DNA of 64,000 nt from Halogeometricum limi (lineage in GTDB: Archaea; Halobacteriota; Halobacteria; Halobacteriales; Haloferacaceae): contig NZ_FOYS01000002.1 of NCBI RefSeq assembly GCF_900115785.1, positions 372,001 through 436,000 on the forward strand, in the 5' to 3' direction. The notes beneath the pieces are model-generated. The model did no database searches. It had not been told where the DNA came from and saw only the letters and a list, made by a program, of their open reading frames with translations. The position numbers and the translations under genes were made by a program. Position 1 is the stretch's first letter; each line of letters begins with the position of its first letter. This document shows positions 37,223 to 48,771 of this stretch, piece by piece.

Positions 37223-39664
37223 TCAGCCGAGGTGACGACGGTAGACGGAGCCGTCGATACCGAGCGTGAACAGGTCGAGGTCGCCGTCGCCCTGTGAACT
37301 CGCGAGGTGCTTACGCACCGGGCCGCCCACGCGTTCGAGTCCGCCCCAGCCGTCGGCCTGCGTCCACGTGCGGTGGTAGAGGCTCCGGTTCGGCATCGTG
37401 ACGAACAGGTCGAGGCCGTCGGGCGCGCGCGACGCGAGACTCATCTCGACGGCGCGGCCGGCGACGTACTCCCAGTTGCCCCAGCCACCGCCGGTGGTGA
37501 GCGTCCGACGGTACAGCCGCCTGTTCGACGCCTCTATCATCAGGTCGACCGTGTCGTCGTCGCGGGCGGCGACGGCCATCTGCTGGACGGGTCCGTAGAC
37601 GGCCTCCCAGTTGCCCCAGCCACCGGACGCGGTCCACGGACGGCGGTAGACGTGGTCGTTCCCGTAGTGGATGAACAGGTCGAAGCGGTCCGTGCCGCGC
37701 GGCACGGCGATGGCGTCGTACACCGGACCGACGATGCGGTCCCAGTTGCCCCAGCCACCCGACTCGGTCCACGGGCGGCGATAGAGCGTGCCGTTGCCCG
37801 TGATGGTGAAGAAGTCGAGGCTGTCGGCGGACCGAGAGAGCGCCGAACTCTTCAGGACCGGGCCGACGACGCGCGTCCAACTTCCCCACTGGCCGCCCTT
37901 GCGCGCCCGGTGGTAGACGTGCTGGTTGCTCGCCGTGACGAACATGTCGAACCCGTCCGTGCCTCGGGTCGTCGCCGTCACGTCGAACGCCGGCTTGTAG
38001 AGCCGTTCCCAGCGGCTCCACCGCTCTTTCACCGCGTCGTAGGCCGCCTTGGCCTGCAGGATGCCGGACCCGGAGTGCTGGTCGTGCCCGGACGGACCGA
38101 TGTCTTTCGCCGTCTGCTTCATCGCCGCCTTCGCCGCGTCCTGGTCCATCGCGGGGTTCGCCTGCTTCATCAGAGCGAGGACGCCCGCGGTGATGGGCGT
38201 CGCGGCGGACGTTCCGCTGTCGCTGTTGAAGTAACCCTCGAAGTGCGTGATGCCGCAGATGTCGGGCTTCTCGGCCGAGAGCGCGGCGGGGCCTTGACTG
38301 CTGTAGCCGACGAACTGCTCGTCTTTGTTCACCGCGCCGACGGTGATGACCTTCGGGTGGCCGTTCGCGCCCCAGATGCTGCGGCCCGGTCCGTTGTCGG
38401 ACCCGCACCGGCCGTCGGGGCACGTCGCACCGCAGTTGCCCGCGGCGAAGGTGACGAGGATGCCCTCGTCGATGGCTTCGACCACTTTCCGGGTGACCGG
38501 GTGGTTCGGGTTGCGCGCGTAGTCGGCGTCCCACGACTCCTGGAAGATGCCGTTCGAGAACGTCAGGATGTCGGGGTCACCGGTCTGCTGGTGCTTCGTG
38601 ATGGCCCAGTGGATGCCCGCCAGCATCGCGGACAGATAGCCGCCGGACGAACCCGCGACGCGGATGTCGTAGAGTTCGGTGTCGGGGGCCATCCCGCGGA
38701 CGTCGGTGGCGCACATCTCGCCGTGTCCGCTCCAGTGGGCGACCTGTCCCCAGTTGGACGGGTAGCCGTCGGTGACGTTGTCGAACGCGCCACCGCTGAC
38801 GCGTCCGCTCGCTCTGATTCCGCCGTCGACGACGCCGACGACGATTCCCTGACCGGTGATTCCCTCGTCGTGGATGGCGTCCACGCCGAGGTACGCCGCG
38901 ACGTCCTGAATCGTCCCTTTCGCCGTCCCCGGCGAACAGTCACACGACCCGATGGGGCAGGAACTGGCGTCCTCGCTCATCGGTTGGACCTGCGCTTCGT
39001 CGTGTTCGACGAGTTTCTGTCCCGGAACGGCTTCGACGGCGAGTTCGGGCGACTCCGCCGCATCGGCCGACGCTACCGCACCGCTTGCGGCCGCCGTCTC
39101 GTCGTCTCTGTCTTCGAGTTCCGGCGCGGACATCGGCGCGATTCGCGAGTCCTTCCGGACGCTCAGGACGTTCGGTCGCGACTTCAGTTCGTCCAGTTTT
39201 TCGCGGTCCACCTCGCCGCAGAGGACGACTATCTGTTCGGTTCCGGCGTCGATGTCCGCCGCGAGTTGGTCCTCGGAGGCGGAGATGGGTATCACGCCGT
39301 AGTCGGGGTTCAACTCGAACCCCGTCGACGCGAGCGACGTCTCAGCCATCGCCATGTCTGCGTCGACGTCGAGCGGAAGTTTCACTTCGACGAGGACGCG
39401 CTCTTTGCCGCCGTCACCGTCTATCTCGCCGCTCTCTTCGCCGAGATGTCCCCCCGGCAGTTCGTCGACCGTCTCGACGTCCACCTCGGCGTGCGGCGGT
39501 GCGTCCGCTCCGCCCATCTTTCCGGCGTCGAACTCCTCGGCGTCCGGTAGTTCGTCGAGTTCTTCGGGCGTACTGTCTCCCCCCGGCGGGACGTCGGAGA
39601 TTTCCGCTCCCTCGCTCGCGCTCACTCGCCACTCTTCGGGGTCGTCCGTCTCTTTCTGGTACAT
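37223..39664 (-). CDS. Subtilisin-like serine protease with C-terminal propeller repeats
   Basis: 813 residues. Residues 1-85 are acidic and lack any visible Sec or Tat signal. Residues 87-177 resemble a propeptide/inhibitor-like domain. A short Cys-rich link CPIGSCDC follows, then the S8 catalytic domain: Asp280 (VVDGG), His314 (SGHGE), Asn410 (AAGNCG), Ser486 (SGTSAATP). From residue 549 six 45-residue repeats (WGNW...GPV...DLF...YRRPWT...GG) look like a lectin-type beta propeller. Start ATG 39664 is chosen: a GGGAGGG element sits 9 nt upstream, and a TTG three codons earlier lacks spacing. Flanks are AT-rich. The substrate is unknown. Confidence 0.87.
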   Translation of the reverse strand: MYQKETDDPEEWRVSASEGAEISDVPPGGDSTPEELDELPDAEEFDAGKMGGADAPPHAEVDVETVDELPGGHLGEESGEIDGDGGKERVLVEVKLPLDVDADMAMAETSLASTGFELNPDYGVIPISASEDQLAADIDAGTEQIVVLCGEVDREKLDELKSRPNVLSVRKDSRIAPMSAPELEDRDDETAAASGAVASADAAESPELAVEAVPGQKLVEHDEAQVQPMSEDASSCPIGSCDCSPGTAKGTIQDVAAYLGVDAIHDEGITGQGIVVGVVDGGIRASGRVSGGAFDNVTDGYPSNWGQVAHWSGHGEMCATDVRGMAPDTELYDIRVAGSSGGYLSAMLAGIHWAITKHQQTGDPDILTFSNGIFQESWDADYARNPNHPVTRKVVEAIDEGILVTFAAGNCGATCPDGRCGSDNGPGRSIWGANGHPKVITVGAVNKDEQFVGYSSQGPAALSAEKPDICGITHFEGYFNSDSGTSAATPITAGVLALMKQANPAMDQDAAKAAMKQTAKDIGPSGHDQHSGSGILQAKAAYDAVKERWSRWERLYKPAFDVTATTRGTDGFDMFVTASNQHVYHRARKGGQWGSWTRVVGPVLKSSALSRSADSLDFFTITGNGTLYRRPWTESGGWGNWDRIVGPVYDAIAVPRGTDRFDLFIHYGNDHVYRRPWTASGGWGNWEAVYGPVQQMAVAARDDDTVDLMIEASNRRLYRRTLTTGGGWGNWEYVAGRAVEMSLASRAPDGLDLFVTMPNRSLYHRTWTQADGWGGLERVGGPVRKHLASSQGDGDLDLFTLGIDGSVYRRHLG
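37226..38020 (-). repeat. Six 135-bp repeats encoding propeller blades
   Basis: The word CCCAGTTGCCCCAGCCACC recurs at 37471, 37606 and 37741 (plus-strand coordinates), exactly 135 bases apart. Diverged copies occur near 37336, 37876 and 38011. Each unit codes for one 45-residue blade. Confidence 0.9.
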
Positions 39665-44618: not shown

Positions 44619-45461
44619 TCACACGAACAGCAACGGCACCATCGCGACGACGCCGCCGACGACGCCCGCGAGGAGTTCCGGGCGGCCGCCGCTGGGGAGT
44701 TCCGCGCCGCGTTCGAGCGCTTCGGGGATGAACTCCGTGAGAACGAGGTATATCATCGCTCCGGCGGCGAAGCCGAATCCGACGGGGAGGAACTCGCGGG
44801 CGAGGCGCACGAAGTAGAACGCGACGACGGCGCCGATGGGTTGCGGGAGACTGGAGAACACCGACCACCAGACGAGTCGCCAGTTCGAGACGCCCATCGC
44901 GCGCAGGGGGATAGAGATGGCGACGCCCTCGGGGACGTTGTGGATGGAGATGGCGACGGTCATGAACACCGCGAGGAGGGGGACGGCGACGCCGAACAGG
45001 CGGAGTCCGCCCTCCAATCCGAGGTCCGCGAACGCGACGCCGACGGCGACGCCCTCGGGGAAACTGTGGACGGTGAGGACGCCGAGGATGAGGAGGAGTT
45101 TCCGGAAGTCGGCCTCCTCGTAGCGCTTCGGGTCCACCTCCGCGCCGTCGATGACGCGGTGGGCGACGACGACGAGGGCGACGCCGGCGAGGAGGCCGAC
45201 GCCGAGGAGGAGAAGCGTCCGCGCGGGCACCGCCGTCGCCGACACTCCCGAGAGCGACACGCTGACGTACTCGGCGAGCGCCTCCAACACGAGTCCGAAG
45301 ACGGACGCCGACAGCATGATGCCCGACGCGAGACCCCACAGTGCGACGTTCCAACGGTCGCTCACCTCCTTGACGAAGAAGAACGGGAGCGCACCGAGTC
45401 CCGTCGCCAAGGCGGTGACGAGTCCGGCGACGAAGACGAAGAGGAAACTCCCGACAGACAT
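44619..45461 (-). CDS. ZIP family divalent metal transporter
   Basis: 280 residues, eight predicted membrane helices. The binuclear metal site is visible as HSFPEGVAVG and HNVPEGVAIS, one in helix IV and one in helix V, with YLVLTEFIPEALERG in the seventh. It moves Zn2+ or another divalent cation, usually into the cytosol. A charged His-less loop (residues 105-120) replaces the His-rich loop of eukaryotic ZIPs. ATG 45461 gives MSVGSFLFVF. It converges with the small acidic gene. Confidence 0.92.
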   Translation of the reverse strand: MSVGSFLFVFVAGLVTALATGLGALPFFFVKEVSDRWNVALWGLASGIMLSASVFGLVLEALAEYVSVSLSGVSATAVPARTLLLLGVGLLAGVALVVVAHRVIDGAEVDPKRYEEADFRKLLLILGVLTVHSFPEGVAVGVAFADLGLEGGLRLFGVAVPLLAVFMTVAISIHNVPEGVAISIPLRAMGVSNWRLVWWSVFSSLPQPIGAVVAFYFVRLAREFLPVGFGFAAGAMIYLVLTEFIPEALERGAELPSGGRPELLAGVVGGVVAMVPLLFV

Positions 45462-46965: not shown

Positions 46966-47445
46966 ATGCACCGCAGAGCGCGCGAGTTCGCGGACGCCGC
47001 GAACGAACGGTACGGGTTCGAGGTGACCGTAGAGGAGTTCCCCGAAGGAACGAAGACGGCCGAAGACGCCGCCGCGGCCGTCGGATGCGACGTGAGTCAG
47101 ATAGCCAGCAGTCTGGTCTTCGACGCCGACGGGTCGCTCGTCGTCGTCGTCACGAGTGGCGCGAACCGCGTGGACGAGAGGCGACTCGCCGACCACCTCG
47201 GCGTGTCGCCCGCGGCGGTGTCGATGGCCGACCCGGAACGGATTCGGGACGTCGTCGGGTGGGCTATCGGCGGCGTCCCGCCGTTCTGCCACGCGTCGTC
47301 GCTCCCCGTCCTCTTCGACGAGACGCTGACGACGCACGACACCGTCTGGGCGGCGGCGGGAACGCCCGAAGCCGTCTTCCCCGTCGACCCGTCCGAACTC
47401 CGTCGACTCGCCGACGCGGACGTCGTCGCGGTGGCAGAAGAGTAG
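46966..47445 (+). CDS. YbaK/EbsC-type aminoacyl-tRNA deacylase
   Basis: 159 residues, single-domain editing protein that hydrolyses mischarged aminoacyl-tRNA (Cys-tRNA-Pro in YbaK; Ala or others in relatives). The conserved alpha/beta core is seen in GCDVSQIASSLVFDADGSLVVVVTSGANRVDERRLADHLG and GWAIGGVPPFCH, the latter containing the GGVPP motif diagnostic of the family. ATG 46966 is used; an upstream in-frame GTG at 46951 would precede the expected transcription start. Specificity unknown. Confidence 0.88.
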   Translation: MHRRAREFADAANERYGFEVTVEEFPEGTKTAEDAAAAVGCDVSQIASSLVFDADGSLVVVVTSGANRVDERRLADHLGVSPAAVSMADPERIRDVVGWAIGGVPPFCHASSLPVLFDETLTTHDTVWAAAGTPEAVFPVDPSELRRLADADVVAVAEE

Positions 47446-47469
47446 CATTTCTCTCACATAACTTTATTT

Positions 47470-47483
47470 TTAGACGCGTCTAA
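47470..47483. promoter_or_regulatory. 14-bp perfect palindrome, candidate metal-regulator operator
   Basis: TTAGACGCGTCTAA reads the same on both strands and directly follows the AT-rich ACTTTATTTT core promoter. Its TTAG/CTAA ends resemble DtxR/MntR/SirR-type operators, as expected before a metal transporter. The regulator is not in the window. Confidence 0.5.
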
Positions 47484-47495
47484 TCTTTGAGTGAG

Positions 47496-47558
47496 ATGAC
47501 TACTATTATCTGCGCTTCGGAGGACGACGTACCTCTCGGAGGGGGAGTCTATGTCTGA
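47496..47558 (+). CDS. 20-codon leader ORF upstream of the putative manganese transporter
   Basis: ATG at 47496, stop at 47558, encoding 20 residues beginning MTTIICASEDD and ending GGGVYV. The stop overlaps the transporter ATG by 8 bases. The likely TATA region (47461-47470) is about 27-30 nt upstream of this ATG, so it would be the leaderless first cistron. A GGAGG-type ribosome-binding site (about 47538-47545) lies before the transporter ATG. Its role could be translational coupling or a metal- or Cys-sensitive switch. Whether it is translated is not proven. Confidence 0.5.
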   Translation: MTTIICASEDDVPLGGGVYV

Positions 47559-48771
47559 GCTGTTCGATATCTTTCTCGGGTCGGTGCGCGACGGTTTCGT
47601 GCAGGTGAGCGCGTTCGTCGCCGTGACCGTCCTCCTCTTCAGTTACGTCCAGTACCGGACGGACGGCCGCCTCGTGAAGAAGCTAGAGGAGAACCGCCGC
47701 GCGGGGCCCATCGTGGGTGCGCTGATGGGTCTGACACCGGGGTGTGGCGGCGCAATCGTGATGATGCCGCTATACATCCGCGGGTCCGTCTCGTTCGGGA
47801 CGGTGGTGGCGACGCTCATCGCCACCGCGGGTGACGCGGCGTTCGTTATTCTCGTCCTCGCGCCCGAGGCGGCCCTGTACGCCTATGGCATCGCACTCGT
47901 CACGGGCGTCGTGTTCGGTTACGCCATCGACGCGTTCGGACTGGGCGTCGGCCGCGTCGACAGAGCGGTGAGACAACTCCGTCCCACCCTGACAGACGGC
48001 GGTGTCGCGACGCCGGTAGCCGGAAGCAAGGTCCACCACTACGACGAGGGAGTCACCTGCGAACGCCACGACCACGGCCCGACTCGCGAGTCCGGGACGA
48101 TGCGTTCCGTGACGCTCGCCGCCCTCGCGGCGTGGTGGGTCGCCGCCGCCGCCGGCCTCGGCGCGGGCGTCCTCTATCTCCTCCGCGGCGCACCGGACGT
48201 GCCGATGGTCGCCGGACTCTCCTTCGCGGGCGTGTTCACCGTCGCCGGGATTACGGGAACGACGCTGTCGGCGTATCTCTACTTCGTCGGTCGGACGTAC
48301 ATCGGCCACGGCGACGTCGGGCGAGCGAAGGACACCTTCGGGAGCGTCTACGAGACGCTGACGCACGCCGCGATGGAGACGTCGTTCGTCACCGTCTGGG
48401 TCATCGGCGCGTACCTCCTCTACGAGTACACCATCCTCTTCACTGGGTTGGACATCGGTTCCGCCGCCGCCGCGGCGGGCGTCCTCGCGCCCGTCGCGGG
48501 CGCCGCCGTCGGCCTCATCCCCGGATGCGGGCCGCAGATTATCCTCTCGGCGGCGTACGCGCAGGGCGCGATTCCGTTCTCCGCGCTGACGGCGAACGCC
48601 ATCAGTCAGGACGGCGACGCGTTGTTCCCCCTCATCGCCATCGACAAGACGGCCGCCGTCGTCGCCAGCATCTACACGACGATTCCGGCCGTCGTCGTCG
48701 GCGTCGCCCTCCACTACACGTGGACGGCCGTCTTCGGCTTCCCGATGTTCGGCTTCGGCGTCATCGGCTGA
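47551..48771 (+). CDS. Putative manganese transporter (ArsP_2-like permease)
   Basis: 406 residues, two homologous halves each with PGCG: MGLTPGCGGAIVMMPLYIRG near residue 57 and GLIPGCGPQIILSAAYAQG near residue 325. The central loop has the metal-like run HHYDEGVTCERHDHG. About ten hydrophobic helices. The family is annotated as a putative Mn transporter, with export suggested in bacteria by Mn riboswitch association. ATG 47551 has a good ribosome-binding site and overlaps a leader ORF. Confidence 0.82.
   Translation: MSELFDIFLGSVRDGFVQVSAFVAVTVLLFSYVQYRTDGRLVKKLEENRRAGPIVGALMGLTPGCGGAIVMMPLYIRGSVSFGTVVATLIATAGDAAFVILVLAPEAALYAYGIALVTGVVFGYAIDAFGLGVGRVDRAVRQLRPTLTDGGVATPVAGSKVHHYDEGVTCERHDHGPTRESGTMRSVTLAALAAWWVAAAAGLGAGVLYLLRGAPDVPMVAGLSFAGVFTVAGITGTTLSAYLYFVGRTYIGHGDVGRAKDTFGSVYETLTHAAMETSFVTVWVIGAYLLYEYTILFTGLDIGSAAAAAGVLAPVAGAAVGLIPGCGPQIILSAAYAQGAIPFSALTANAISQDGDALFPLIAIDKTAAVVASIYTTIPAVVVGVALHYTWTAVFGFPMFGFGVIG

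Follow-up and report, generated by a model that had tools for sequence, protein, structure and literature searches.

A short open reading frame (ORF) precedes a predicted heavy-metal transporter gene in the haloarchaeon Halogeometricum limi, which raises the question of whether the frame arose by chance, encodes a sensing peptide, or serves the translation of the gene on which it ends. A sequence-only reading of the locus had raised the second possibility, an archaeal counterpart of leader-peptide control in which Cys and acidic residues of the leader might sense metal or charging state. We examined the locus and followed the leader through the orthologues of the transporter across the haloarchaeal class. 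Here, the window is the whole 64,000-nucleotide stretch of DNA that was analysed, and coordinates refer to it unless stated otherwise.

Leader ORF and transporter

The transporter gene, single-copy in its own genome, matches Pfam family PF11449 (ArsP_2, 'putative 10TM heavy-metal exporter') with 374.8 bits, above the curated cut-off of 32.5, and also NCBIfam NF037962, of the 'arsenic efflux' subfamily. Manganese had been named as its substrate; literature searches found no papers connecting PF11449 with this metal. A gene for a YbaK-type tRNA-editing protein lies upstream of the transporter, and a ZIP-family metal transporter gene (44619-45461, minus strand) lies approximately 2 kb away.

The leader and its surrounding elements are listed in Table 1. 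Both the 20-codon frame and its 8-base overlap with the transporter start, as first described from the letters of the window, are present in the sequence. In the mechanical ORF list the same frame opens further upstream, at TTG 47487; we prefer ATG 47496 as the start because it fits the spacing to the TATA box and is retained in relatives. Inspection of the locus revealed no Shine-Dalgarno (SD) motif upstream of this ATG and an AT-rich stretch, ctattat, 3′ of it. The assertion that only the transporter has a ribosome-binding site also held class-wide, with SD-like motifs at 106 of 120 transporter starts versus 18 of 120 leader ATGs.

Table 1. Positions of the leader ORF, the transporter gene and associated elements in the window.
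Feature	Position	Strand	Description
Predicted TATA box	47463..47472	+	TTTATTTTTA; last three bases are the operator's first three
Palindromic operator	47470..47483	.	TTAGACGCGTCTAA; perfect 14 bp; overlaps 3′ end of TATA region
Leader ORF	47496..47558	+	MTTIICASEDDVPLGGGVYV; ATG 47496-47498; 20 codons; TGA stop 47556-47558
Shine-Dalgarno-like GGAGG	47538..47542	+	Within leader ORF, 8 nt 5′ of transporter start
Stop/start overlap, leader and transporter	47551..47558	+	ATGTCTGA; 8 nt
PF11449 (ArsP_2) heavy-metal transporter	47551..48771	+	406 aa; Pfam E 6e-112

Within the window, the PF11449 gene alone combines such a leader with a strong and suitably spaced TATA box. A weaker candidate occurs on the minus strand (39717-39664), where a 16-codon ORF, MFTSGLFVAKSRREGW, follows an AT-rich promoter and stops 2 nt short of the start of a subtilase-family gene (37223-39664, minus strand). 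From this arrangement, a second coupled leader is possible. We did not find a full-length orthologue of the subtilase-family gene in the genus.

Promoter and operator

The best AT-rich 7-mer upstream of the leader, TTTATTT (47463-47469), is centred 30 nt 5′ of the leader ATG, and this distance predicts a transporter mRNA with its 5′ end at that ATG or shortly upstream. The adjoining palindrome, which had escaped the earlier reading, is a probable candidate for the binding site of a metal regulator. Class-wide, the exact sequence TTAGnnnnnnCTAA occurs no more than 120 nt from the orthologue start at 89 of 125 loci, and at 74 of these the palindrome itself contains an ATG. The H. limi genome has three exact TTAGAnnnnTCTAA sites, another of them upstream of a ZnuA-like importer gene: on contig C7 (L171, 1501-1514), an exact TTAGACTTCTCTAA precedes the TATA box of a gene for a ZnuA-family metal-binding protein. 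The shared motif suggests that this gene and the PF11449 transporter belong to one metal regulon. Literature searches found no published motif comparable to the palindrome. Metal control is probably transcriptional and exerted through this element at the promoter.

Three promoter layouts recur among the loci, with the leader ATG within the operator, 12-14 bp past it (as here), or approximately 55-60 bp past it, separated from it by the TATA box. Palindromes of this genus and its sister genus are generally without an ATG, and the leader ATG follows 12-14 bp 3′ of them; in L048, from the sister genus, the palindrome does hold an ATG, but upstream of the predicted transcript start. This embedded ATG was rejected as the leader start because the L048 TATA box overlaps the operator and points to transcription from further 3′, where a 21-codon leader opens. 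In several other clades the palindrome, or a weaker version of it, stands 5′ of the TATA box, with the leader ATG on the 3′ side of that box. Despite these differing layouts, the distance from TATA box to leader ATG is 30-32 nt in 77 of 120 cases class-wide. Four operators without an ATG (L049, L050, L051 and L064) are followed by the transporter's own ATG as the first AUG.

Conservation of the frame and its end point

Orthologues were gathered from a genome collection and at the levels of family, genus and class, and further upstream regions were added. The class-level set covered 120 of 391 genomes and 46 of 86 genera; 125 loci from 45 genera were analysed. An ORF was scored as a match if it ended between -9 and +19 nt relative to the transporter start. 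The base rate of matching is approximately 20%, a window estimate in which out-of-frame codons were taken arbitrarily at 30-110 nt before 43 predicted genes. A null built by swapping leaders and starts between genera gave 51% matches and was discarded as uninformative, since most loci share one frame class. Loci and neighbouring genera share ancestry, so none of the counts below represents independent trials.

At loci with an ATG in the palindrome, that ATG was taken as the start irrespective of where its frame stopped. L048 was left out because its TATA box places the transcript start downstream of the operator ATG, leaving 73 loci. The frame ends on the transporter start at 72 of these 73 related loci, as opposed to 9 of 73 for the other non-transporter frame; at the sole exception, L086, a nearby upstream ATG opens a 21-codon frame that does terminate there. 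In the interval from operator ATG to transporter start, the leader frame contains 2 in-frame stops in 832 codons and the two alternative frames 8 and 49; both stops of the leader frame come from a single genus, in which the stop sits 1 nt before the transporter start.

For the remaining loci, the first ATG 3′ of the best TATA string was used, and 37 loci matched, 7 gave the transporter's own start and 8 missed. By inspection, at least 6 of the 8 misses have a nearby ATG that gives a leader ending on the transporter start. A second ATG was needed for the leader in L065, L068, L070, L073, L075, L126 and L164, and no clear leader was found in L069. Class-wide there are 109 matches, among them L151, whose 59-codon match rests on a poorly chosen TATA string far upstream and is to be discounted. 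Leaders range from 5 to 47 codons (median 16), and the overlaps are mostly 4, 8 or 11 nt. These counts establish that a leader ORF before the transporter is more than chance. In the genomes compared, the first AUG of the predicted haloarchaeal transcript is nearly always either the transporter start or the start of a leader that ends on it.

This end point is reached in many ways. Approximately 37 distinct combinations of length and overlap occur among all matches, 18 of them within the operator set. Leaders with a spacing of 2 mod 3 end at ATGA or GTGA, those with 1 mod 3 at ATGTCTGA, GTGGCTGA, ATGGCGGGTGA and similar sequences, and the start context switches with the frame even inside one genus (g45). 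A leader of 20-21 codons with an ATGnCTGA overlap is kept in 5 of 5 genomes of this genus and 2 of 2 of the sister genus, while its peptides have diverged. Across the haloarchaeal orthologues of approximately 45 genera, sequence comparison indicates that the linkage is conserved more than the peptide.

Two further arrangements were observed. In L068 leaders occur in series: the TGA of MRATV overlaps the start codon (ATG) of a 33-codon ORF, and the TGA of that ORF in turn overlaps the transporter start, forming a chain of putatively coupled leaders. A diverged PF11449 paralogue of 44-45% identity (L166, L167 and L168) has a different palindrome (TTAGGGCAACCTAA or TTAGGGCGACCTAA); its leader is 30 codons long and has a 4-nt overlap. 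The peptide of this leader appears partly conserved (for example RLEWW) and might be a real small protein.

An upstream AUG could also act mainly by capturing ribosomes and lowering transporter output, the close stop limiting the harm of an AUG that the operator makes unavoidable. The frequent placement of an ATG by the operator (74 of 89) where the mRNA is predicted to begin is in keeping with such damping, as is L151 (genome G303), where the operator ATG has become ATT and the transporter carries an internal TAG; here the loss of the leader start may have accompanied decay of the gene. However, leaders persist where the operator supplies no ATG, namely in this genus, in the clades with the operator further upstream and in the paralogue with its different palindrome, and a single base change would remove the operator ATG, yet most lineages retain it. 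We consider damping improbable as the main role.

The leader peptide lacks a coding signature

The leader interior has a GC content of 0.65/0.67/0.65 at the three codon positions, compared with 0.71/0.46/0.84 in the transporter. Substitutions are similarly even, with 31/35/34% per codon position in leaders; for the N-termini of the transporters of the genus the figures are 26/12/63%. Within the genus alone, leader substitutions fall 29/31/41%, a mild third-position excess that does not suffice as evidence of selection on the peptide. The leaders average 3.1 basic and 2.1 acidic residues. Those of the sister species, MNHIFGFAARRSRVSEGDDV, MYHITAVAARDRRPRGANDD, MNHIAGFAARRSRVPGDDDV and MNHMPGFAARRNRVRRADDV, are rich in Arg and contain no Cys.

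These patterns bear directly on sensing or attenuation, in which ribosomes stalled in the leader by metal, by the charging of Cys-tRNA or by the nascent peptide would switch transporter expression. The window leader does have one Cys and several acidic residues, the gene upstream encodes the YbaK-type tRNA-editing protein, and Cys-rich leaderless leaders in mycobacteria have been proposed to act as attenuators (PMC4633059). However, Cys occurs in just 33 of 120 leaders, the Cys of the window leader is missing from its four congeners, and apart from their ends the leaders showed no conserved sensing or arrest residues, even within the genus. The region is no more structured than its shuffled counterparts (fold z +1.62), and positions 47300-47700 matched no Rfam covariance model at E up to 1, the yybP-ykoY manganese riboswitch included; on these two grounds a riboswitch or attenuator was rejected. 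Together with the flat codon-position GC and substitutions, these results leave very little room for sensing. Of the leader-control idea, then, a real and conserved leader ORF before an archaeal transporter stands, and the peptide as a sensor of metal or charging is not supported. Since the peptide is not conserved, ribosome delivery is the likelier role of the leader.

We also considered whether leader and transporter might be joined, by an N-terminal extension or a programmed frameshift. Relative frames of +1 and +2 both occur, so no single frameshift fits, and this was rejected.

A proposed model for ribosome delivery

Three features of the locus, an AUG without an SD motif at the predicted 5′ end, an SD motif before the transporter and a stop/start overlap, fit rules established in Haloferax volcanii, and the mechanism that we propose follows from them. 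With the mRNA beginning on the leader AUG or a few nucleotides away, ribosomes would start there in leaderless fashion, as is normal in haloarchaea; in H. volcanii, 72% of coding transcripts are leaderless (PMC4983044). They would then read 20 codons of arbitrary peptide and stop on a codon overlapping the transporter start, where the SD motif inside the leader would help them to reinitiate. The leader would thus be a ribosome-delivery frame in which the start, the absence of stops and the end point are selected and the amino acids are not.

Overlapping gene pairs in H. volcanii are strictly coupled, and their SD motifs serve reinitiation and not de novo initiation at 5′-UTRs (PMC6728339); separating the genes by approximately 20 nt nearly abolishes coupling (PMC10666635). 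The anatomy of such pairs, overlapping stop and start codons with an SD motif within the upstream frame, is complete at our locus, although many overlaps in the class are 8 or 11 nt and fall outside the 1- and 4-nt pairs stressed in the Haloferax work. A review describes upstream ORFs of this kind as delivering the ribosome to the coupled gene (PMC12548453). We put the probability of leaderless initiation, termination on the transporter start and SD-assisted reinitiation, all under a metal-type operator, at roughly three in four.

A chance frame, in which transcription would begin within the leader (from TATTAT near 47507, for instance) and the transporter would be read from a short SD-led 5′-UTR, draws on the AT-rich ctattat after the leader ATG and the SD motif before the transporter, but is highly unlikely given the class-wide conservation of the frame, the avoidance of stops, the fixed TATA-ATG spacing and the inability of SD motifs to drive de novo initiation at Haloferax 5′-UTRs (PMC6728339).

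Returning to ribosome delivery, the broader proposal is a rule for the archaeal class, by which the operator sets an AUG at the mRNA 5′ end and a leader of indifferent peptide sequence brings ribosomes to the transporter; we regard this generalisation as an even bet. If true, derepression and ribosome loading would share one element, and the leader would be, going by the literature found, the first conserved leaderless delivery leader in archaea. Peptides of short archaeal leader ORFs need not be functional, a caution that suits a case in which conservation extends to the frame and its end point but not to the peptide. The proposed hand-over of a ribosome from a leaderless leader ORF to an SD-bearing gene is directly testable.

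Comparison with known systems

Each mechanistic step is already known. Their combination as a class-wide archaeal arrangement ahead of a single transporter family, frequently with the AUG in the operator, is not reported in the literature found, a search mainly of openly available papers. The nearest parallels within the same archaeal class are the termination-reinitiation pairs of H. volcanii (Huber et al. 2019, PMC6728339; 2023, PMC10666635), which share the overlapping stop and start and an SD motif within the first of the two frames. Both members of those pairs are full genes, whereas the upstream member in our case is a short leader (median 16 codons) whose peptide is not conserved. Upstream ORFs of 15-31 codons also precede haloarchaeal genes in Table 2 of Babski et al. 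2016 (PMC4983044). As described in the excerpted text, they lie in UTRs of 150-250 nt and have low isoelectric points; the table does not name the transporter, and that excerpt does not describe a stop/start overlap.

Among bacteria, a Salmonella Mg2+ transporter gene is likewise preceded by a short ORF. In the excerpted text of PMC8092293 the account of that case centres on mRNA structure near the start, whereas our locus has neither excess structure nor a conserved peptide. Closest in logic are the leaderless coupled small ORFs of mycobacteria (Shell et al. 2015, PMC4633059), where a small ORF on a leaderless transcript ends on the annotated start (RTGA), the linkage seems to be selected more than the peptide, and ribosome delivery has been proposed. 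The mycobacterial case is bacterial; ours is archaeal, concerns one transporter family across a class, often has its AUG in the operator and includes overlaps of 8 and 11 nt.
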